NCBI GenBank assembly: GCA_028829895.1
Contig: CM054177.1
Location: 50,453,664 to 50,517,663 of the forward strand
Origin: Sinotaia quadrata
Lineage: Eukaryota; Mollusca; Gastropoda; Architaenioglossa; Viviparidae
Direction of reading: 5' to 3'
DNA: 64,000 bases
Within the stretch, counting starts at the first letter, position 1, and each line of letters starts with the position of its first letter. Shown here in pieces: positions 5,713 to 62,052 of the stretch. Position numbers and translations under genes: made by a program. Under the pieces are notes generated by a model. That model was not told the origin of the DNA, made no database searches, and was given only the letters and a program-made list of their open reading frames with translations.

Positions 5713-7375
5713 CATTGATAAGGATGAGTTTCTACTCTAAATGCAGACGTGAGAGTGACTTCCAAAGTTTTTAATAAAGTATTTGGTAAAATGATTAAAA
5801 TTGAAACTGATAAAGTGATTTTTTAAAGTAATTAATTTACGCCATTTCTACCGTAAATATTATCTCTAGGTCATTTCCATTTCTTCAACTCGCACCTCAA
5901 GCATATGAGTTTCTGTCCTCACTCAGACCGAATAGCTGACAGCGCTGACACGCGTGAAAGTAACAACTCTGATTGATTTAATCTTAATTAAAGGCACAAC
6001 GACCTTGACAGGAAACTGACAACACGATCTCCACTAATTCACATGGCAAGAAATATGCCCTTTTCATGATTTCTTTCATTTACTTTTAGGATTGATTTCA
6101 AAATTGTCCTCAATGCTCTGAACAATTTCTAAATTAAGTTTAGTTTCTGCAACTGCTATAAATGTTTAGGAATATAAAAAAACAAGAAATTCGGCATACA
6201 TAAATACATGATCGTTTTCTTGACTGGTGTTGTATGTACGTACGCTCGTACATATGTACGATAAAACATAGATAAGTAGATAGATGTTTCCATGGATGGA
6301 TGAAAATAGAGACAGAGAGAAAGGCAATAGAGACAGAGAGAAAGAACGATAAACAGAGGTATGTATATCGCAATGGTTTTGATTGCAAACTGGCCATAAA
6401 TTTTTATTGCTGTTTGCTTCTGCAGTCCTTAGTATATGACGTCATGGACATTTACTCAAGGCTCACTGAGGTAAATCATATTTACATAGTGTTTGCCGAA
6501 GATGACGTCATTTCAACGTAAGGAGATGTCACATGCAACTGTGGTACACAAATCACAGGATTGCTTGTAACGAGTCTATAGTTTGGCATAGGTGAGCACA
6601 CATTATAAAGACTCAAATCAAGGACATAAGTCTCGGCTGGACACTACATTGCACGACCTTGACATTAATATTTGTCCAATTAACTTTAAAGTGTGCTAGG
6701 AATCTTTAGTATTATTATTATTATTATTATTTTGTGAATTTCTGGTTGGTTTCGAGCATCTAATGACAAATCTGGCCTATCTAACATTCAAGTTTTCAAG
6801 TTCTTCGGTAACACTATGGAAATCAGTCCATTTAATATCAAGTGTTCGTTCTAGCGGTCGCCCACTGAAATCAAAGACAGCGAGTGCAATTTTTCAAGTC
6901 ATTCAGCAAAGTCAATTTTATACAGAGCACGCGCGTTCGCACATAAATGAATTTTGACAGGCATACTGCGACAATAATTGCCTGCTTCTCAGCAGACCCT
7001 GTCTAAGGTTTGTCATGATAATAATGTACTCTTCAGACACAGGCGAGTGTCTTTCACTTCAGTCATCAGTATTGTGATCACGTGATTTTCCTCACAGGTG
7101 ATGGAGTGTTAGTTTCTTGAGTCGCTTGGTTTGTTCAATTACTCTTTCTTTTCCTGTCAGAGGATCGGCTGGCTATGTGGTGCGCTACTTCCGAAGTTAA
7201 AATGTACAATCATCTGCAATTGTAATTCAGGAGAGGGGTGGGGGTGGAGATGAACTGAGACTTGTTGATAAAGATCAGATACTTGCTGACAAATGGCATG
7301 GATGTAATGGGTTACAATACTTCAAACCACGTGATTAATTACTTTTAGGGTATCATGTTAAAAGTTAATCTTAGG
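5713..7375. other. No recognised gene; two CRE-type palindromes
   Basis: Contains TGACGTCA at 6437-6444 and 6503-6510, two GACCTTGACA motifs (6001 and 6655) and a (TTA)n run at 6711-6730. ORFs of 64-85 codons match nothing I know. Confidence 0.5.
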
Positions 7376-50374: not shown

Positions 50375-50750
50375 ACCACCTGCGTCTAACAACCACTTTA
50401 TGTCTCACAACCACCTGTGTCTGACAACCACTTTGTGTCTCACAGCCACTTTATGTCTCAGAACCACCCGCGTCTAACAACCACTTTGTGTCTCACAGCC
50501 ACATTATGTCTCACAACCACCTGTGTCTGACAACCACTTTGAGTCTCACAGCCACCTGCATCTAACAACCACTTTGTGTCTGGCAACCACCTGCATCTAA
50601 CAACCACTGTCTCACAATCACCTGTGTCTAACAACCACCTGCACACTTTGTGTCTGACCACCTGTGTCTAACAACCACCTGTATCTAACAACGACGTTCT
50701 CTCACACCACCCGCAACCAATTTGTGTCTCACAACCACATGCGATTGACA
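50375..50750 (+). repeat. Degenerate 17/31-bp repeat
   Basis: Units ACAACCACCTGTGTCT and ACAACCACTTTGTGTCTC interspersed. Confidence 0.88.
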
Positions 50751-50894
50751 ATTCAGACTGTTCATAAACAACGAATCAGTTTTACTTTGTATATTTACAT
50801 TTGATCGACATAAAGATTAGAGATTAAATTTTATTAACATTAACATGCAGCATTAAAGCATGAAAACATAACCATTTAGATCTGTACGTGAAAG

Positions 50895-51035
50895 TTCTAA
50901 GCATAGAGAGGAATACGTAAAAGTTCTAAGCATACAGAGGAATACGTAAAAGTTCTAAGCATACAGAGGAATACGTAAAAGTTCTAAGCATACAGAGGAA
51001 TACGTGAAAAATCTAAGCATACAGAGGAATACGTG
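50895..51035 (+). repeat. 29-bp minisatellite, 5 copies
   Basis: Units AAGTTCTAAGCATACAGAGG plus AATACGTAA. Confidence 0.95.
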
Positions 51036-51778
51036 GAGTAAAAAACCTTGCATTCATTCCACCACAATTCTACACTAACAGCAACATTCCTTCTTAAAAG
51101 ATTTCTGTGGGCATTAATTCAAGAAAGAATACGAGGGACTGTCACCGTGACCGTAGGATGATGTATCTACGTCACGGGTCTCCGTGAGTGGGATAAAAAC
51201 AGGATATCTTTTAGCTAGCTCTTTTAACAACATTTCATACGGGTTTCGTCATATTTCATAGGCCAAGCTCACCCGCCCATCAAATGAAGGCAGTAGTGCA
51301 TGACAAGATTTAAATAGAAGGTTTTAATAAGTCACTTGGGGTCTAGTCAAAATGTGTAGAGTCTCTTTTCACTCGGGGCTAGTAAAGTCCTCAAGGTTTT
51401 CCAGCCACATGCCCGAATATAATAATAAAAAATAGCGTCTCAAATGTAACTCAGAGTGATTGCCTTTTAAAAAAACTGGAACGTGTGTGTTCATGCTGTA
51501 GATGTTTTGTCGACACCTGCCTGACAATATAGGAATTTTCGCGTTCACGCTAAAGACATTTGTTGACGTGTCTTACTCTGTTAACAACCTTCAAAATACT
51601 CCAAGATTTCTGGTACATTCAACAGACATTCGTTGTCGTGTGCTATTCTCATGCAACATTTAATTCTTGGATATGAAACAGTGAAAAAACTGTCGACGTT
51701 TATTTTCACATGTTAATATTATTTGATATCGCCTTGAGAATCACTGCCCCTGTGATTGCCGTTTAGCAAACAGTTTGT
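51036..51778. other. No recognisable feature
   Basis: Spacer before the satellite and retroelement; nothing seen. Confidence 0.5.
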
Positions 51779-51831
51779 GTGACAATCTACTCAAGCAGTT
51801 TACAGCTATCAGTTAAGTTCGACAGTCTACT
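51779..51831 (+). repeat. Left remnant of the 40-bp satellite
   Basis: About 1.25 units of the satellite seen at 60440-60815, beginning near GACAATCTACTCAAGC and interrupted at CTACT by the retroelement. The insertion therefore fell near the left edge of the array. Confidence 0.9.
51827..51831. repeat. Target-site duplication, left copy (CTACT)
   Basis: CTACT lies immediately before the 5' LTR and is matched by CTACT at 60440-60444 immediately after the 3' LTR. A 5-bp duplication fits gypsy-class integration. The pentamer belongs to the 40-bp satellite unit, so the element landed inside that array. Confidence 0.93.
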
Positions 51832-52226
51832 TGTCACAGGAAATGAGGGACAGAAATTATATTTTATTTCATTTTAAAAAACCGCTAACAAAACTAATTG
51901 AAGTAATCCGAGTTTTGTTATTTTACATATGTAGCATGTAAATTCCAGTAACGGTCACCTAAGATCTCTTTAGTAGACAGACGTTCGTGACGCAGTGTGT
52001 GTTAATTATCATATTGAATATATATATTAGTTTATGAAGAATATGTATATTAAATAAATTGGGACAACTGCGCAATACCGTCACGTGTTGTTGACGAGTG
52101 AAATGGCCAGTGCGCATTAGGATTGACCACAGAAAAGCGTGCATCACGATTACCACTATATATCCAAGGCAAAAATCATGTCACAGGACATAGCTTCTGG
52201 AAGTTTTGGAAACCTTCAGTGAGAGC

Positions 52227-52234
52227 TATATAAG
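52227..52234 (+). promoter_or_regulatory. LTR TATA box (TATATAAG)
   Basis: A strong TATA consensus about 395 bp into the 5' LTR, repeated at 59115-59122 in the 3' LTR. By the usual spacing, transcription would begin near 52255-52262 (inference). This would make a very long R region. Confidence 0.7.
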
Positions 52235-53328
52235 AGGCAAAATGAAGACTTTTATTCTCAATGTTGAAAACGTCGATTCGTCTGAAGCCAGTCTAACTTC
52301 ACGTATGAATTATCTCATGTACAGAGATTTCATAAAGGAAAGCTGCAATAATCTCTTTCCATCCGTTTTCCATCCGTCTGATGCCATATATTGAGTAACG
52401 AGGCAAAATTACTCAGTATAACTTTTGGCAAAGTGGAAAGTTCGCTGTCAAGAAAAACCCATGCACGCGACGCTGGTTGTATGCAGTTAACGACGCGAGG
52501 GACCAACTTGTTCGTCCCCCTGCCTGAGTTCGTTTTGGCAGTCTATCCCGCAAATTGAGGGGCTAGCGTCGGAGATACATATCCGGATTTCTACACTCAA
52601 TGTAATGCGACGACACATCCCACTGGACGACTCCATCCGATAATGCTAAACGTCGTTGAGGTGTCCGTGTCCACGACAAACAACGATAATTATCGAGGCT
52701 GACAGCAGTCAGCTAAATTTCAGATTTCTCCCCAGTGATAATCTGAAAGTGGTGCCTAGATTCTGCAGAGTCTTCACCTGTAATGCGACGCCTCAATTGC
52801 GTCCCGTCTTCACTTTGAAGTGCCGCTTATAAGTGACGTGTGAACTTACGTCATCTCCTTGGAACTCTGACATTAATAGTGAGTAATCATTAGCACGGCT
52901 AACGCGCACATACTTAAGTCTAGGACTCTTAAGAAAATGAACACTATTATATCGTTTGCAAAATAAGAACTCTAATGTTAAAAGTAATGCTTATTTTACA
53001 TGTCAACTATTGTTAAAGCGGCCCCATTTGCCGCATAAGAATTGTATAATTAATCTTTATTTTATATTTTGAATTTCATCATTTTCATCTCCCCTTATTT
53101 CCCACAGAGTGTATGACATTGGAAAGTTGAATGAATGATTAATCACTGTGCGAAAGAGTAGTGCCCCTTTTAAATCGGGAAATAAATAACCTGATTTAAA
53201 CATCTTTCAACTCTCTTGTTATTCATAGTTTTTGAGAGGGACGAAAGAATTTGTACTATTGTTTTGCACCGTTCGTCTGTTCGTCCATTTATTCACATTT
53301 ATGATACACACTCACAACACACACCGCC

Positions 53329-53360
53329 AATAAAACGTTCCTTGGCATGACATTAATAAA
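53329..53360 (+). terminator. LTR polyadenylation signals
   Basis: AATAAA occurs at 53329-53334 and again at 53355-53360, followed by a GT-rich stretch (ATGTCATGTGTGTCTATG). The copies in the 3' LTR (60217 and 60243) would be the ones used for the genomic transcript. Which hexamer is used cannot be decided here. Confidence 0.6.
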
Positions 53361-53551
53361 GTGGGCCCCACCCAAACATCAATGGAGTATGTCATGTGTG
53401 TCTATGTAACAACTGACGCGACGTAGTACTGGCATACGTCACCGGGCTTTTCTTGGAGGTGCACCGGAGCAGGCCAAAATTAGACTCTCACCCCTTGCAT
53501 CTCTAACTTCAGCTCGAGGTCGGCTTGTAACGAGCCTCCCGTTTTGTGACA

Positions 53552-54013
53552 TCTGGTGACCACTGACCGTGATCTGACAAGGTAAATTGTGTTGTTGTAA
53601 GAAAGTGTCATCTCTTTCCTGCTTTTCTATCTCATCACCATTATGCATTGTTTATTGCATGTTAGGGCTTGCTATTGAGACTTAGGTGAACTGGATTTCG
53701 ATAAGACTTATTATTGTGTTGAAATAAGTTTTATAATCTTTACGCTATTATCGTTAACGCGTACCGACTCGTGTTTAGACGTACATAGATCGATATTTTG
53801 TACGCTACATTAGCAACTGTTGTTTTGCTAATTTTGCTAACTTTGCAAATTTCCGATTAGGATTTCTTTTACTCGTGTTTGTAATAATCCTAATCACGTG
53901 GTGGCTGGTGTTCATACGCACACCATTGCACCACTTGTGACCTACAGAGGTCAAAATCCCGCGAATATTCTAAGTCACTTTAACCATACTCGTGATAACT
54001 AGCAATTTTAAAA
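53552..54013 (+). other. Retroelement 5' leader between LTR and gag
   Basis: 462 bp of untranslated leader starting with the primer-binding site. The gag ATG at 54014 follows an A-rich stretch with A at -3 and G at +4, a good initiation context. A donor-like GTAAAT at 53582 and an acceptor-like CTACAG ending at 53946 could bound an intron, but nothing else supports splicing. I see no conserved ORF here. Confidence 0.7.
53554..53577 (+). promoter_or_regulatory. Primer-binding site, probably for tRNA-Trp
   Basis: Two bases after the 5' LTR the sequence TGGTGACC begins. It is complementary to a tRNA 3' end reading GGTCACCA, as in animal tRNA-Trp, and equals the first eight bases of the tRNA-Trp site used by avian retroviruses (established knowledge). 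After a mismatched spacer, CGTGATCTGA (53568-53577) again resembles the complement of the tRNA-Trp T-arm region. Position and TGG start are typical; the tRNA assignment is inference. Confidence 0.65.
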
Positions 54014-57000
54014 ATGGCCGAGCTAGTAAACATAAAGAAAGAACTCATGGCTATGGGTAGAGAATTCGGGTATGAAAAAGCCGAGTTAAAGGAATACGTG
54101 GATGAGGAGATAGCTAAATGGTATGTTGCGAAAGAAAATGAGGCGAAAGAGGCGAGAGAGCTAGAAGAAAAGAGACAGGTAGCTAAGGATTTAGAGATGC
54201 GAACTTTGAGAGAGCTAGAAGATAAGAGAGAGTTAGCTAAACATCTAGAGATGCAAACTCTGAGAGAGCTAGAGGAAAAAAGATCGAAAGAAGCTATAGA
54301 GTTAGAAGATAAGAGAGAGTTAGCTAAACATCTAGAGATGCAAACTCTGAGAGAGCTAGAGGAAAAAAGATCGAAAGAAGCTATAGAGTTAGAAGATAAG
54401 AGACAGATAGCTAAACAGCTAGAGATGCAAAACCTGAGAGAACTAGAGGATAGGAAAAATGAGCTAGAGGAAAAAAGAGCGAAAGAGGCAAGAGAAATAG
54501 AGTTATTAAAGATTCAGTCTGCTAGGGATTTAGAAGATAAAAGGCAGGAAGTAGAAGAGAGAAAGCTTAAGTTAAAAGCTAGAGCACATCAGGAACAGCT
54601 TGAGTTAGCTAAGCAAGAGGTAACAGCTAGAGAGAAGTTGTTAGATGGGACTGCTAAGCAACAGGCCGAATTAAATAAACCCCGTACACGGCTAGCTTTC
54701 TTCAACCCTGAAGTCGAGACGATTGACGAGTTTTTGACACGCTTTGACAGTTTCATTGCCAACTTTAATTACACTGACATTGAAAAGAAACAACAACTCG
54801 GTCAAATACTTCAAGGTGAAAGCTCGCGCGCATTTACTGATCTAACGCGCGATCCCGCTATTACTTATGCAGATCTCAAAACGGGTTTGATGCGTACTTT
54901 TCAATGTACAGCAGAAGGCTTTCGAAAAATGTTTAGGAGAGCCATACCTAAAGCAAATGACACCATGCAAGCCTTCGGTACCCGGTTACGCCATTATCTT
55001 GATAGATGGATTGATTTGACAGATATCCAGAAGACATATGAGGGCCTATTTGATTTGATATTAAGAGATCAATTTCTCCATATTGCTCCGCCTGCAATGA
55101 CGACATATTTGCAGCGAAATCCCCCGACTAACTTCTGTGATATGTTGAAGTTAGCAGACACGTATAATGATTACCCTGATCCGGTAATTACGAGGAGTGC
55201 GCCACGCCCTCCTCTTACAAATCGGCAGAAGTATACACCGAAATCGAACCGACCAATGACGAAATCGGAAAAACCCGAACCGGTACAGCGGACATATACT
55301 AAGTCACAAGACGTACGACGTCACACACGTGACCCCCCACCTATGACATGTTACACTTGCAAAGGGAAGGGGCATAGTTCTCAGAACTGTCCCAGTCCAC
55401 GTGATGTAAAAGTATGCACTGAAACAGGTGCAACTCTAAAGACCCAACAGGCTACAGTAAACGGACAAAAAGTCAAAATACTGGTCGATACAGGCGCGTC
55501 CATAAGCTGCATAAATGCTAAACTTGTACGCCCTGAACAGTATCTAAGGGGTAGTGTCCGCATTCGATGTGTTATGGGACACCTTAGTACATGTCCAAGA
55601 GCCACTGTACATGTTACGTCATCCGTATTTTCCGGTACAGTCACCGCCGCAGTAATAAGAGACATGCAGTTCGGATTCATACTATCACCCGAACAGTGTG
55701 ACGCACACACTGATGACATCTATCCTGTTCTCCCCGTAACCACTAGAGCACAACGGGAACGTAGTAAACAAGGACCCCCAGCTCTAAAGATAGTCGAGAA
55801 CACATTTCCGCAGTTGACCCCAAGTCAACTCAGTCACCTGCAGCAGGAGGACAAAAGCTTGTCCTCATTGCTAAAGCTGGCACGGAAAAACACTATTACG
55901 TCCAGCAAGTACGCGACAATTACGTATTTCCTGAAGGACGGGCTAGCGTTTCGGCGCACCGACTATAAGGAAAATGATACTAGAAGCACCACGTGTCTAT
56001 TTACTCCTACACCACTCAGACCGCTGATTCTAAGCTTTGCACACGACTCAATCATGTCCGGACATCAGGGCGCGCGTCGCACTGAGCAGCGAGTTCGTGA
56101 AGACTTCTTTTGGCCAGGCCTGAGTAGGGATGTTCGCTCGTACGTTCGTACATGTACGCAGTGTCAACAACATATTGACCGAGGGCGTGTCAGTCGAGTT
56201 CCCCTCGAGATAGTACCAACAGTAGAGGAACCCTTCCTAAAAGTCGCAGTAGACATTATTGGCCCAATCATTCCCGCGGCCGAAGGAGGATATCGCTATA
56301 TCCTAACAATCGTGGATTTTGCAACGCGATATCCAGAAGCAGTCGCATTAAAGGGCATCACAGCAATCGAAGTCGCAGACGCTTTAATAGACGTATTTTC
56401 TCGTACTGGTGTACCTCGAGAAATATTGAGTGACCAGGGCACTCAATTCACCTCAGCAATGATGGCTGAAACAATGCGTCTACTAGCGTGTAAACAGTTG
56501 TTCTCATCACCATATCACGCTCAGTCTAATGGTGCCGTTGAACGTTTCAACGGTACAATAAAGAAAATGTTAATTAAAATGGCCTCGGAACAACCCGACC
56601 AGTGGCCGCGTTTTCTAGCACCATTACTCTTCGCGTATCGCGAACTCCCACAAGAGAGTACGGGCTATTCACCGTTCCAACTACTATACGGCAGGCAACC
56701 TCGTGGTCCCCTTAAGCTAATTAAAGAAACATGGGTCAAGGGAGACACTGTGACCGATAGCAAAGATGTTCACACGTACGTAGCCGAACTACGTCAACGT
56801 CTGACCGAAACGTGTCACTTAGCACAGGAAAACGTTCGCGAAAAACAACCCCGATACAAGCGAAATTTTGACCGTACGGCTGTGGAACGTGACCTCGAAC
56901 CAGGTCAGCTCGTGTTACTCTTGCGGCCCACGCATAACAACCGCATGCAAATGCACTGGCGTGGACCCTACCGCGTTATTAAGCGTGTGAAGCAGAACGA

Positions 57001-58591
57001 TTATAGCATACAGATAGGAAATAAGCAGAAAACCTATCACATAAATATGCTAAAGCGTTACTATGAACGCAGCGACGAACCGATACAAAACGTGAATGTC
57101 GCACTGATACAATTGGAAGACTCCAATTTCAGAACAGACATGATGTCCGCCGAAACCCAGCCTAACTCTGCAGTTACAGTCGATCAAGTCGAGATTGACT
57201 CAAACTTAACTGTCGAACAGCGCGACGCAATGTCAAACCTCTTACACAGACACGCGCGCATATTCACCGACCAACCGGGCCACTCAGATTTGGTTGAACA
57301 CCGCATCAAACTTTTAAGTGACAAACCGATACGCTTAAAACAGTACCCACAGAAATATGAGAGCACAAAGTACATAGCAGAACAGGTGCGTGAAATGCAA
57401 AAACAGGGCGTGATTGAACAGTCAATCTCCCCATATTCATCACCGGTCGTCTTAGTTAAAAAGAAAGACGGTACGCTTCGTTTTTGTGTGGACTACAGAC
57501 AGTTAAATGAGATAACTGAATTCGATGCGGAACCTATTCCAAATCAGGACGAATTATTCGCAAAACTAACCAAGGCACATTACTTTTCAAAGTTTGACAT
57601 GTGCAAAGGGTACTGGCAACTGTCAGTTGCTATTGACGACAGACCAAAAACAGCCTTTCCAACCCCGCTAGGCTTATTTCAGTTTTCCCGACTACCGTTC
57701 GGACTAGCGAACGCACCCGCAACATTCGCGCGCTTCATGCGAAAATTACCGTTAGAGAGCGTTAACGCATTGAATTTCTTTGATGACATACTGGTAGCAA
57801 CAGGAACATGGGACCAACATTTATCCTCAGTGGATGGTCTACTTGACATTCTCGAGCGCCATAGATTGACCGTGAAACCCTCCAAAGTTCGCGCGGGCTT
57901 TCGAGAGATTGAATTTCTTGGCCATATCATAAGTGACGGACAAATAGGCCCAAATCTAGACTTGACTGCAGCCATTCGTGACATGACCTTACCGACTACA
58001 AAGAAACAGGTCAGGGCAGTTTTGGGGCTAGTGGGGTACTACCGAAAATTTGTCCCAAACTTCAGTACGCTTCTTAAACCACTGACGGACTTAACTGGAA
58101 ACAAACAACCCACGAAAATACGATGGACGGCAGAGTGTAGCACCGCCCTCGAAAAAGTGAAGGACATCTTGACCAGTAAACCCGTCCTACAGTTACCAGA
58201 CTTTGACAAGAGATTTATTGTCAGGACCGACGCATCAGATGAAGGCCTCGGTGCCATACTTCTCCAAGAGACAGATGACGAATACCTACCGGTAGCATAC
58301 GCGTCTAAGAAACTGTTAGATCGTGAGACACGGTACTCTACGATTGAAAAAGAGTGCTTAGCAATCGTATGGGCACTCAAGAAATTTAGTGCTTATCTGT
58401 ACTCTAAACCATTCATCCTGCAGTGCGATCATAAGCCGCTGACATATCTGCGCACTAGCATGTATGATAACGCTAGGCTAACTAGATGGACACTCCTGCT
58501 ACAGGAGTATAGCTTCGTTGTCGAACACATCGCGGGCAGAGAAAATTCGGGTGCCGATGCATTATCCCGGCATGCCATAACCGCGATATAA
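54014..58591 (+). CDS. Gag-Pol polyprotein, order gag-PR-INT-RT-RNase H, 1,525 aa
   Basis: Polyprotein of the retroelement, with gag and pol in one frame. Residues 1-220 are an E/K/L-rich coiled coil with near-exact 29-residue repeats. About 222-400 is the capsid; its C-terminal part (about 300-390) is SCAN-like. A CCHC knuckle (CX2CX4HX4C) uses C446, C449, H454 and C459. Protease: DTGAS with catalytic D492. Integrase: zinc finger H677, H684, C714, C717; core D747, D807, E843 (DX59D, DX35E); GPY at 984-986. Reverse transcriptase, about 1090-1330: D1195 and the D1257-D1258 pair in an FFDD box where gypsy enzymes usually have Y-x-D-D. RNase H: D1406, E1447, D1472, D1515. There is no chromodomain and no internal stop. 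The linker before integrase resembles the one that in canonical gypsy elements joins RNase H to integrase. The start is the first ATG after the leader. The minus-strand ORFs inside this span are shadows. Confidence 0.96.
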   Translation: MAELVNIKKELMAMGREFGYEKAELKEYVDEEIAKWYVAKENEAKEARELEEKRQVAKDLEMRTLRELEDKRELAKHLEMQTLRELEEKRSKEAIELEDKRELAKHLEMQTLRELEEKRSKEAIELEDKRQIAKQLEMQNLRELEDRKNELEEKRAKEAREIELLKIQSARDLEDKRQEVEERKLKLKARAHQEQLELAKQEVTAREKLLDGTAKQQAELNKPRTRLAFFNPEVETIDEFLTRFDSFIANFNYTDIEKKQQLGQILQGESSRAFTDLTRDPAITYADLKTGLMRTFQCTAEGFRKMFRRAIPKANDTMQAFGTRLRHYLDRWIDLTDIQKTYEGLFDLILRDQFLHIAPPAMTTYLQRNPPTNFCDMLKLADTYNDYPDPVITRSAPRPPLTNRQKYTPKSNRPMTKSEKPEPVQRTYTKSQDVRRHTRDPPPMTCYTCKGKGHSSQNCPSPRDVKVCTETGATLKTQQATVNGQKVKILVDTGASISCINAKLVRPEQYLRGSVRIRCVMGHLSTCPRATVHVTSSVFSGTVTAAVIRDMQFGFILSPEQCDAHTDDIYPVLPVTTRAQRERSKQGPPALKIVENTFPQLTPSQLSHLQQEDKSLSSLLKLARKNTITSSKYATITYFLKDGLAFRRTDYKENDTRSTTCLFTPTPLRPLILSFAHDSIMSGHQGARRTEQRVREDFFWPGLSRDVRSYVRTCTQCQQHIDRGRVSRVPLEIVPTVEEPFLKVAVDIIGPIIPAAEGGYRYILTIVDFATRYPEAVALKGITAIEVADALIDVFSRTGVPREILSDQGTQFTSAMMAETMRLLACKQLFSSPYHAQSNGAVERFNGTIKKMLIKMASEQPDQWPRFLAPLLFAYRELPQESTGYSPFQLLYGRQPRGPLKLIKETWVKGDTVTDSKDVHTYVAELRQRLTETCHLAQENVREKQPRYKRNFDRTAVERDLEPGQLVLLLRPTHNNRMQMHWRGPYRVIKRVKQNDYSIQIGNKQKTYHINMLKRYYERSDEPIQNVNVALIQLEDSNFRTDMMSAETQPNSAVTVDQVEIDSNLTVEQRDAMSNLLHRHARIFTDQPGHSDLVEHRIKLLSDKPIRLKQYPQKYESTKYIAEQVREMQKQGVIEQSISPYSSPVVLVKKKDGTLRFCVDYRQLNEITEFDAEPIPNQDELFAKLTKAHYFSKFDMCKGYWQLSVAIDDRPKTAFPTPLGLFQFSRLPFGLANAPATFARFMRKLPLESVNALNFFDDILVATGTWDQHLSSVDGLLDILERHRLTVKPSKVRAGFREIEFLGHIISDGQIGPNLDLTAAIRDMTLPTTKKQVRAVLGLVGYYRKFVPNFSTLLKPLTDLTGNKQPTKIRWTAECSTALEKVKDILTSKPVLQLPDFDKRFIVRTDASDEGLGAILLQETDDEYLPVAYASKKLLDRETRYSTIEKECLAIVWALKKFSAYLYSKPFILQCDHKPLTYLRTSMYDNARLTRWTLLLQEYSFVVEHIAGRENSGADALSRHAITAI

Positions 58592-58602
58592 ACAAGAGAG
58601 AG

Positions 58603-58647
58603 GATAGTCTCTCCACAGATGCGCATATAATTCCTGTGGAGACTATC
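58603..58647 (+). other. Stem-loop directly after the gag-pol stop
   Basis: The left arm 58603-58618 (GATAGTCTCTCCACAG) pairs with the right arm 58634-58647 (CTGTGGAGACTATC): 14 base pairs with a 2-base bulge and a 15-base AT-rich loop. It begins 11 bases after the stop codon and is followed by AATAAA (58654) and a T-tract. Possible roles are RNA stability, export or packaging; none is shown by the sequence. Confidence 0.75.
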
Positions 58648-58708
58648 GTGTGAAATAAAATTTTTTTGTTCCTAATTGATTTCCACTCTGTGAGCTCCAA
58701 TCAATTTT

Positions 58709-58719
58709 AAGAAGGGGGT
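58709..58719 (+). promoter_or_regulatory. Polypurine tract
   Basis: AAGAAGGGGG followed by one T ends immediately before the 3' LTR. Position and composition are those of the plus-strand primer of LTR retroelements. Confidence 0.85.
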
Positions 58720-60439
58720 TGTCACAGGAAATGAGGGACAGAAATTATATTTTATTTCATTTTAAAAAACCGCTAACAAAACTAATTGAAGTAATCCGAG
58801 TTTTGTTATTTTACATATGTAGCATGTAAATTCCAGTAACGGTCACCTAAGATCTCTTTAGTAGACAGACGTTCGTGACGCAGTGTGTGTTAATTATCAT
58901 ATTGAATATATATATTAGTTTATGAAGAATATGTATATTAAATAAATTGGGACAACTGCGCAATACCGTCACGTGTTGTTGACGAGTGAAATGGCCAGTG
59001 CGCATTAGGATTGACCACAGAAAAGCGTGCATCACGATTACCACTATATATCCAAGGCAAAAATCATGTCACAGGACATAGCTTCTGGAAGTTTTGGAAA
59101 CCTTCAGTGAGAGCTATATAAGAGGCAAAATGAAGACTTTTATTCTCAATGTTGAAAACGTCGATTCGTCTGAAGCCAGTCTAACTTCACGTATGAATTA
59201 TCTCATGTACAGAGATTTCATAAAGGAAAGCTGCAATAATCTCTTTCCATCCGTTTTCCATCCGTCTGATGCCATATATTGAGTAACGAGGCAAAATTAC
59301 TCAGTATAACTTTTGGCAAAGTGGAAAGTTCGCTGTCAAGAAAAACCCATGCACACGACGCTGGTTGTATGCAGTTAACGACGCGAGGGACCAACTTGTT
59401 CGTCCCCCTGCCTGAGTTCGTTTTGGCAGTCTATCCCGCAAATTGAGGGGCTAGCGTCGGAGATACATATCCGGATTTCTACACTCAATGTAATGCGACG
59501 ACACATCCCACTGGACGACTCCATCCGATAATGCTAAACGTCGTTGAGGTGTCCGTGTCCACGACAAACAACGATAATTATCGAGGCTGACAGCAGTCAG
59601 CTAAATTTCAGATTTCTCCCCAGTGATAATCTGAAAGTGGTGCCTAGATTCTGCAGAGTCTTCACCTGTAATGCGACGCCTCAATTGCGTCCCGTCTTCA
59701 CTTTGAAGTGCCGCTTATAAGTGACGTGTGAACTTACGTCATCTCCTTGGAACTCTGACATTAATAGTGAGTAATCATTAGCACGGCTAACGCGCACATA
59801 CTTAAGTCTAGGACTCTTAAGAAAATGAACACTATTATATCGTTTGCAAAATAAGAACTCTAATGTTAAAAGTAATGCTTATTTTACATGTCAACTATTG
59901 TTAAAGCGGCCCCATTTGCCGCATAAGAATTGTATAATTAATCTTTATTTTATATTTTGAATTTCATCATTTTCATCTCCCCTTATTTCCCACAGAGTGT
60001 ATGACATTGGAAAGTTGAATGAATGATTAATCACTGTGCGAAAGAGTAGTGCCCCTTTTAAATCGGGAAATAAATAACCTGATTTAAACATCTTTCAACT
60101 CTCTTGTTATTCATAGTTTTTGAGAGGGACGAAAGAATTTGTACTATTGTTTTGCACCGTTCGTCTGTTCGTCCATTTATTCACATTTATGATACACACT
60201 CACAACACACACCGCCAATAAAACGTTCCTTGGCATGACATTAATAAAGTGGGCCCCACCCAAACATCAATGGAGTATGTCATGTGTGTCTATGTAACAA
60301 CTGACGCGACGTAGTACTGGCATACGTCACCGGGCTTTTCTTGGAGGTGCACCGGAGCAGGCCAAAATTAGACTCTCACCCCTTGCATCTCTAACTTCAG
60401 CTCGAGGTCGGCTTGTAACGAGCCTCCCGTTTTGTGACA
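58720..60439 (+). repeat. 3' LTR (1,720 bp)
   Basis: Same length as the 5' LTR with one noticed mismatch. It starts directly after the polypurine tract and ends TGTGACA just before the CTACT target duplication. As the downstream LTR it would supply the polyadenylation signals (AATAAA at 60217 and 60243). Its TATA box at 59115 could drive read-through into the flanking 40-bp array. Confidence 0.97.
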
Positions 60440-60444
60440 CTACT
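60440..60444. repeat. Target-site duplication, right copy (CTACT)
   Basis: Right-hand partner of 51827-51831. It is also the first five bases of the next 40-bp satellite unit. Confidence 0.93.
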
Positions 60445-60815
60445 CAAGCAGTTTATAGCTATCAGTTTAGTTCGACAGTCTACTCAAGCAGTTTACAGCT
60501 ATCAGTTTAGTTCGACAGTCTACTCAAGCAGTTTACAGTATCAGTTTAGTTCGACAGTCTACTCAAGCAGTTTACAGCTATCAGTTTAATTCGACAGTCT
60601 ACTCAAGCAGTTTACAGCTATCAGTTTAGTTCGACAGTCTACTCAAGCAGTTTATAGCTATCAGTTTAGTTCGACAGCCTACTCAAGCAGTCTACAGCTA
60701 TCAGTTTAGTTCGACAGTCTACTCAAGCAGTTTACAGCTATCAGTTTAGTTCGACAGTCTACTCAAGCAGTTTACAGCTATCAGTTTAGTTCGACAGTCT
60801 ACTCAAGCGAATATA
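60440..60815 (+). repeat. 40-bp minisatellite hosting the retroelement
   Basis: About 9.4 copies of a 40-bp unit starting CTACTCAAGCAGTTTACAGC. Copies differ by single substitutions (TTTACAG/TTTATAG), and one lacks a base. The array continues the partial unit on the other side of the element. Confidence 0.95.
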
Positions 60816-61010
60816 AACTTACCAATCAGGTACTAATAATCAAACGAATTTAAACTCACTAATCAGCGACTAGTAATCAAACGAACATAAACTTACCTAT
60901 CAGGTACTAGTAATCAAACGTACACAAACTTACTGATCAGTAAGTGGTAATCAAACAAGCACAAACTTAAGAGTCAGTGGTTGGTACAGAAACGAACACA
61001 ATCTTACTAA
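60816..61010 (+). repeat. Degenerate 40-45-bp repeat
   Basis: Diverged units with AATCAAACGAACATAAACTT and TAATCAGGTACTAG, directly after the 40-bp satellite. Confidence 0.78.
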
Positions 61011-61374
61011 TCAATTGTTGAAACATACTGCAACAGTAACAAACTGCTCACAACACTATTCCACTTTGTTACAAAAGCTATAATATGACTACTACTACAC
61101 TCATCAGCAATATAAAAACTACATCCACTCATCCCACTTAATTACAACAACTATAGTACACCAGCAACTACCATCACCACTGCACTCACCAAACAATAAC
61201 AAACTTCCACATACTAAGCACACCATTAACCATACCAACTACCGCAATAACAAACTATTACAATCGACAAACCTCAAACACACCAACAACAAATATAGTA
61301 GAGTAACATCACCAAAATTGCCAACAAGATGTTTAATACATTACCATCGACAAACTTACTACATCAGGTACAGC
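61011..61374. other. A/C-rich spacer, nothing recognised
   Basis: Low-G sequence rich in CAACAA and ACTACCA; no ORF. Confidence 0.5.
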
Positions 61375-61470
61375 AAACCACCCCCACCATTCTCACATAA
61401 ACCTAACCACCCCCACCATACTCACATAAACTAAACCACCCCCACCATACTCACATAACTAAACCACCTC
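61375..61470 (+). repeat. About 28-bp repeat, 3 copies
   Basis: Units ACCACCCCCACCATACTCAC plus ATAAACTA. Confidence 0.85.
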
Positions 61471-61765
61471 CACTACATCGTATGATCACAACTGATCACA
61501 AAGGTTTTAACACCACACTCGAATATATATTATCTATAACAAAAGACTATAAATACATCACATTAATTACTACATGACATAACAACAAACACACATCACT
61601 TCAACATTGACACGGCATAACAACATACACACATCACGCCAACAAGGACACAACAACAAACACACAAACCATATCAACGACTTTCGTTAACTAATCTAAG
61701 TAAAAGTGTTCCTGGCCTTGCTCTTCCAGGGACTCGTCACCGCTTCAAGGAAAATATTTATCATT
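61471..61765. other. No recognisable feature
   Basis: A/C-rich low-complexity spacer with CAACAAACACACATCA-like phrases. Confidence 0.45.
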
Positions 61766-62052
61766 TACCGAAACTGTGACACATAATTATGTGACCCGGA
61801 TATAAATAACTAAACGATATTTTATGACACATCATAATAACCATGCTCCTGGCCATAATCTGCATCTTGAGAGAAAATATTACGTTTGTCATTAGCCGAA
61901 ACTGTGACACTTGATTATGTGACCCGGATATAAATAACTAAACGATATTTTATGACACATCACAATAACCATGCTCCTGGCCATAATCTGCATCTTGAGA
62001 GAAAATATTACGTTTGTCATTAGCCGAAACTGTGACACTTGATTATGTGTGT
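61766..62052 (+). repeat. 127-bp tandem repeat, about 2.2 copies
   Basis: Copies anchored by CCGAAACTGTGACAC at 61768, 61896 and 62023; the second and third match almost perfectly. Confidence 0.93.

Follow-up and report, generated by a model that had tools for sequence, protein, structure and literature searches.

The stretch of DNA analysed here (the window, 64,000 nucleotides, positions 1-64000) carries at positions 51832-60439 a complete long terminal repeat (LTR) retrotransposon, its coordinates fixed exactly by self-comparison of the window. We hold with high confidence that this is an autonomous, recently inserted Ty3/gypsy element of the Gmr1-like kind, in which integrase precedes reverse transcriptase (RT), residing in a gastropod genome. 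The element and its edges comprise the following features.

51827..51831, no strand: left target site duplication, CTACT, with the identical five bases at 60440-60444
51832..53551, + strand: 5' LTR, 1720 bp, TG...CA, one difference from the 3' LTR
53554..53573, + strand: primer-binding site, two-insert form TGGTGACC-A-CTGAC-C-GTGAT, related to tRNA-Trp
54014..58591, + strand: single gag-pol open reading frame (ORF), 1525 amino acids, one frame
54080..54598, + strand: gag N-terminal coiled coil of 87-nt repeats, the repeated unit variable in length between copies
54695..54904, + strand: gag capsid N-lobe
54902..55183, + strand: gag capsid C-lobe, SCAN-like
55349..55390, + strand: CCHC zinc knuckle CYTCKGKGHSSQNC, by motif; PF00098 at 18.7 bits, under the cut-off of 20.8
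55448..55555, + strand: aspartic protease (LVDTGAS); PF13975 at 28.2 bits, equal to the cut-off, in a scan limited to residues 1-635
56006..56173, + strand: integrase H2C2 zinc-binding domain; PF17921, E 2.1e-20
56231..56587, + strand: integrase catalytic core, DD35E; PF00665, E 3.2e-11
56729..57088, + strand: integrase C-terminal (GPY/F) domain, WRGPYRV motif; PF22938 at 24.7 bits, under the cut-off of 27
57455..57931, + strand: reverse transcriptase, FFDD active site; PF00078, E 3.2e-25
58124..58510, + strand: RNase H; PF17917 at 3.9e-38 and PF17919 at 2.7e-36
58709..58719, + strand: polypurine tract AAGAAGGGGGT, identical ahead of the 3' LTR in host copies L003 and L005
58720..60439, + strand: 3' LTR, 1720 bp, from the self-comparison
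60440..60444, no strand: right target site duplication, CTACT, which begins a 40-bp minisatellite

The two LTRs, which end in TGTCAC...GTGACA, differ across their 1720 bp at position 52467 only; a leader of 462 bases separates the 5' LTR from the ORF, and the 128 bases from the stop codon to the 3' LTR end in the purine tract. Target duplications are 5 bp long in all four insertions read, the other three being TACAT, ATATG and TTTAG. The original prediction of an intact element with all its signals is thus borne out by the LTR pair, the CTACT duplication, the polypurine tract and the open frame. On the + strand within 50500-62000 there is no second ORF of at least 100 amino acids, and hence no env gene after pol such as would mark an errantivirus or endogenous retrovirus.

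The ORF reads gag, CCHC knuckle, protease, integrase, RT and RNase H, and the Pfam matches run from protease through H2C2, rve, the GPY-type C-terminus and RVT_1 to RNase H, as the original prediction had it: one frame with gypsy-class enzymes and integrase ahead of RT. The zinc-binding residues (H677/H684/C714/C717) and the catalytic triad (D747-D807-35-E843) of integrase are present. The protease, zinc-knuckle and GPY profile matches lie at or below curated cut-offs (PF13975 drops to 26.8 bits when the whole protein is scanned), and these assignments rest on motifs too. The closest PDB relative is Ty3 (7q5b), whose RT-RNase H and integrase are homologous to those of the window element and stand in the ordinary order, RT before integrase: the window integrase corresponds to Ty3 1092-1500 and the window RT-RNase H to Ty3 597-1004, so that the blocks are swapped. 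All three enzymes (RT, RNase H, integrase) are by sequence of the Ty3/gypsy class (Metaviridae), whose gypsy-class RT, H2C2, DD35E and GPY/F integrase, TG...CA LTRs and short target duplication are all found here. To an E value of 0.01, the Pfam matches include neither a copia-type RT family, as Ty1/copia elements (Pseudoviridae) would have, nor a chromodomain at the integrase C-terminus, as chromoviruses would.

Within gag, residues 23-195 form one long helix, the coiled coil, in which three other copies carry 7- and 11-residue indels relative to the window element; the length differences of the four copies are located there. The capsid C-lobe is SCAN-like according to its family profile and a model, a second mark of the Gmr1 lineage. 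A Foldseek search against viral structures gave no matches at E <=0.001.

The element belongs to a large family. The host genome searched comprises 984 Mb in 26 contigs; 31 of 14,381 first-look candidates were scored, making copy counts lower bounds. In a genome protein search all 31 scored copies are colinear with the window protein and free of stops; 28 span residues 1-1525 unbroken, and three fall in two overlapping stretches split in the coiled coil. Chance is therefore excluded as the source of this order, and the further full-length host copies for which the original prediction proposed a search exist in at least 31 open examples. Four LTR pairs show 1, 0, 0 and 0 differences and the LTRs of seven copies differ mutually by 2-5%, a combination that argues for recent insertions from several established subfamilies. 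The ratio of nonsynonymous to synonymous substitution rates (dN/dS) is 0.07-0.13 in the six pairs of four copies (1290 codons); the protein is under selection.

Copies also occur in tandem arrays, at C3:92106345-92135675, C5:71110521-71125770, C1:14694881-14708537, C1:129649176-129662740 and C6:50405259-50411459, with a constant spacing of LTRs or primer sites of 6903-6907, 6764, 6814, 6768 and 2237 bp, respectively. They look as if neighbouring copies shared LTRs head to tail. At the sole 2237-bp junction read (L058), LTR and RNase H tail remain and nothing else.

How common the inverted order is was gauged from two protein searches, one with the RT-RNase H protein (3816 proteins) and one from the distant member P0026 (2787 proteins); the best 120 of each were listed, with two proteins common to both lists. 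Some listed rows are fragments and many lack a host name. Order was scored by BLAST of separate domains with the integrase catalytic core alone, a query including the integrase C-terminus having inflated the first count to 111/120. So scored, the core precedes RT in 69 of the best 120 of 3816; five others lack integrase, two have the ordinary order, P0002 consists of RT-RNase H only and P0003 is a fusion that contains pieces of ordinary order. The best 120 of 2787 have the core before RT in 100 cases, the C-terminus only in 16 and integrase without a matched RT in four, and none is RT-first. Named hosts of integrase-first proteins among the matches listed include the gastropods Littorina and Gigantopelta, the bivalves Pecten, Crassostrea, Ostrea, Pinctada and Ruditapes, and the deuterostomes Diadema, Patiria, Antedon and Glandiceps (echinoderm and hemichordate; proteins P0261, P0318, P0324, P0349 and P0352). 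Neither list of the best 120 has a protein under the name Gmr1.

The remaining 42 of the best 120 of 3816 are integrase-first relatives of the P0084 type, which have lost the catalytic core but in which the frame and the integrase C-terminus persist; locus L036, from another family of the same host, has lost the core too. Such elements would need integrase from elsewhere to insert. Two integrase-first proteins, P0244 and P0246, are recorded for metagenome-assembled genomes of the bacterium Candidatus Thiodiazotropha and are probably host-animal DNA.

Placement of the element rests on domain trees that sampled 28 of 238 distinct proteins (24 integrase-first and four exceptional) together with host loci L032 and L034, both integrase-first; the four exceptional proteins, Ty3 and the assembly loci L027 and L029 supplied the rows of ordinary order. 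In the RT tree (38 rows) integrase-first and ordinary rows are split with support of 100/100, the deuterostome rows lying on the integrase-first side; the RNase H tree (35 rows) gives the same split at 92/96, and the integrase tree (31 rows, without P0004, P0004b and L027) at 96/98. In the joined alignment (31 rows, 655 columns) the split is again 100/100, with 27 integrase-first rows on one side. Among these 27, integrase and RT distances correlate with r 0.60, a value reached in none of 2000 permutations. The joined tree puts the window element and its relative P0001 within a nine-row sublineage (99/97), to which the other integrase-first rows together are the sister group (87/79); the five deuterostome rows are nested in that sister group, outside the window's sublineage. 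When integrase is analysed by itself, P0047 drops out of the nine, though a tree that keeps all nine in one group is not rejected (p 0.28). The host's second integrase-first family (L032, L034) also lies in the sister group, and its union with the window family in one clade is rejected (approximately unbiased [AU] test, p 8.7e-5). The five deuterostome rows were not recovered as one clade, the unnamed row P0073 falling inside (AU p 0.054).

The Gmr1-like affinity claimed in the original prediction stands in that all three domains group with integrase-first elements, including those of deuterostomes, and the separate RT, RNase H and integrase trees it called for agree on that side, integrase only after rows were dropped. 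Several observations weigh against our reading. The first integrase tree (34 rows) gave a weak split of 65/81, with an ordinary-order fragment, P0004b, on the integrase-first side on a branch of 7.6. Without P0004b, L027 and P0261 the integrase tree is not cleanly split, the division appearing in 16% of bootstrap trees, and one integrase-first clade is not rejected there (AU p 0.292). Rows P0004, P0004b and L027, which are fragments or have very long branches, were dropped after the trees had been inspected. The tree rows do not include the sequence of Gmr1 itself, from Gadus morhua. The window gag alone matches SCAN at E 0.16, behind a globin match at 0.15. Finally, while anatomy, domain order, class, lineage grouping, target duplications, open copies and selection on the protein are all shown here, we infer every biochemical step and current activity from sequence.

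An order unlike that of ordinary Ty3/gypsy elements could in principle betray a chimera, in which RT and integrase of different classes were joined by recombination, nested insertion or assembly error, but the frames are unbroken in all 31 scored copies, the same order recurs in 69/120 and 100/120 listed relatives, the domain trees are concordant and the integrase-RT distances are correlated. We consider this explanation extremely improbable: a recent chimera is refuted, and we do not dispute that an ancient swap lies at the lineage root. That the element is simply Ty1/copia, hence its copia-like order, finds a footing in the domain order alone and is contradicted by RVT_1, Integrase_H2C2 and the GPY-type C-terminus, by the lack of a copia-type RT match noted above and by Ty3 as best PDB relative, leaving it a probability close to nil. 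RT and integrase thus fell neither in different superfamilies nor in copia, the two outcomes that the original prediction had set against itself.

A subtler alternative holds that the integrase-first order arose a second time, separately, within gypsy, and that the element is not Gmr1-like by descent. The window sublineage is a deep side branch, a single clade joining it to L032 and L034 is rejected, and the absence of Gmr1 from the trees leaves room for such a history. Yet all 27 integrase-first rows lie on one side of a single branch, so that a single origin is enough, and a SCAN-like capsid is shared, SCAN being confined in frog to Gmr elements (in the available part of PMC4131045). A separate origin is therefore very unlikely in our judgment, and we retain Gmr1-like descent.

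We posit that transcription of this Gmr1-like element would start from the long LTR and that one gag-pol polyprotein would be made and cut by its own protease, with the capsid assembling through its SCAN-like C-lobe; host tRNA-Trp would prime the minus strand and the purine tract the plus strand, and the DD35E integrase would insert the product by 5-bp staggered joining.

The primer-binding site occurs in two forms in this family. The 5' LTR is followed by two bases and then by TGGTGACCACTGACCGTGAT. The complement of the host tRNA-Trp(CCA) gene ends is TGGTGACCCTGACGTGAT in four of the five genes read, the fifth (contig C26) differing, and 44 genome sites without the two extra bases match those four genes at 18/18 positions. 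A genome-wide count gives 643 occurrences of the 29-mer that includes the two extra bases and 44 of the 27-mer that lacks them (not every such site belongs to a full copy; reversed controls gave 0 matches). Among 26 copies read irrespective of primer site, 24 have the two-insert form and two the exact one, the form having been read by eye from printed letters in two of the 26. The two forms do not cluster in ten-copy LTR and leader trees, which are small and have little support. A search for a tRNA fitting the two-insert form, by a 14-base pattern with any base but C after it, found five genome matches, none a tRNA by ARAGORN; tRNA genes with a C next to them would escape this pattern, and at least three of the five tRNA-Trp genes read have such a C, so a fitting tRNA may yet exist. 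We propose tentatively, and with some doubt, that the primer tRNA does not usually serve as template for renewing the primer site in this family, the two-insert form matching no tRNA gene found so far. The primer would be tRNA-Trp, its pairing needing only the first eight bases, and the rest of the site would be mostly inherited from element RNA and occasionally reset from the tRNA.

At the insertion site, the minisatellite spans 60440-60808 and its unit is also present at the element's left edge; the element was therefore inserted in the array or at its edge. The whole window is dense in tandem repeats (97 overlapping rows at a score of at least 150), many with periods of 20-130 bp and several of them reading open on one strand or on both, and many of its long frames are translated tandem repeats. 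Rfam models match nowhere in it at gathering thresholds, and it has no tRNA gene.

The host, to judge from its nuclear COX1 copies, is a gastropod and so a protostome: the nearest match of copy L015, read in the invertebrate code, is a gastropod cluster (92%), and gastropods fill the first 15 places among the 120 matches listed. Five full-length COX1 copies (L015-L019) lie in the large contigs C2, C5, C6 and C7; their only in-frame stops are TGA, which reads as Trp in mitochondria, and they are probably recent large mitochondrial insertions. Another COX1 (L020, C26:13744-18078) is divergent and unlike the gastropod copies; what is probably ND1 precedes it, and by gene order it looks flatworm-like, so that contig C26 may be parasite contamination.

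The element kind is already known, and the usefulness of this example lies in its intact state and large copy set: it can serve as a full-length and probably young reference copy for an integrase-first family of molluscs whose sites number in the hundreds within a single chromosome-scale genome, where two deeply split integrase-first lineages coexist in one host and where primer-site inheritance, array formation and integrase loss are open to study by sequence alone.

A 2002 paper by Goodwin and Poulter reportedly deals with Gmr1-like Ty3/gypsy elements. The suggestion in the original prediction that the element bears on protostome spread holds in that the host is a gastropod, but such spread is not new. 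In their available parts, one source describes its crustacean elements as the first of the Gmr1-like kind in protostomes (2013, PMC3587641), another reports an annelid Gmr1 family, LGF3 (2021, PMC8220671), and a third counts Gmr1 among clades found in several phyla (2021, PMC8556966). The accessible text of a mollusc survey (PMC6238403) has a gypsy-clade table without Gmr1, naming it once, in the Background, and among the titles listed by our literature search on Gmr1-like elements in molluscs and Gmr1 in gastropods, none but PMC6238403 and PMC3587641 treats this topic. The integrase-first order may have gone unremarked in molluscs so far, and the Cigr-1 or MolGy clades of that survey may hold integrase-first elements.

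Among its closest counterparts, P0001 (ENA contig, 4581 bp; 1191 amino acids) shares the order of the window element and 96% identity over RT-RNase H, but its gag N-terminus is missing; Littorina saxatilis P0009 and P0012 have the same order and fall in the same nine-row sublineage, with only 57% and 53% identity over RT-RNase H. The crustacean GyRex4 and GyRex5 and the annelid LGF3, as described in the portions available, are likewise reported Gmr1-like elements of protostomes, GyRex4 and GyRex5 being known from fragments, unlike the complete window element. Four pufferfish Gmr families have, in the available part of PMC11117352, a single gag-pol frame of 1506-1634 amino acids, as here, and LTRs of 337-518 bp against 1720 bp in the window element. 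SCAN, which what is accessible of PMC4131045 reports from more than half of the Gmr elements of frog and from no elements of other types, has a SCAN-like counterpart in the window gag. The window element thus resembles Gmr1-like elements in its gypsy-class enzymes and in having integrase upstream of RT, and differs from them in the long, variable coiled coil before its capsid and in its deep, separate sublineage.

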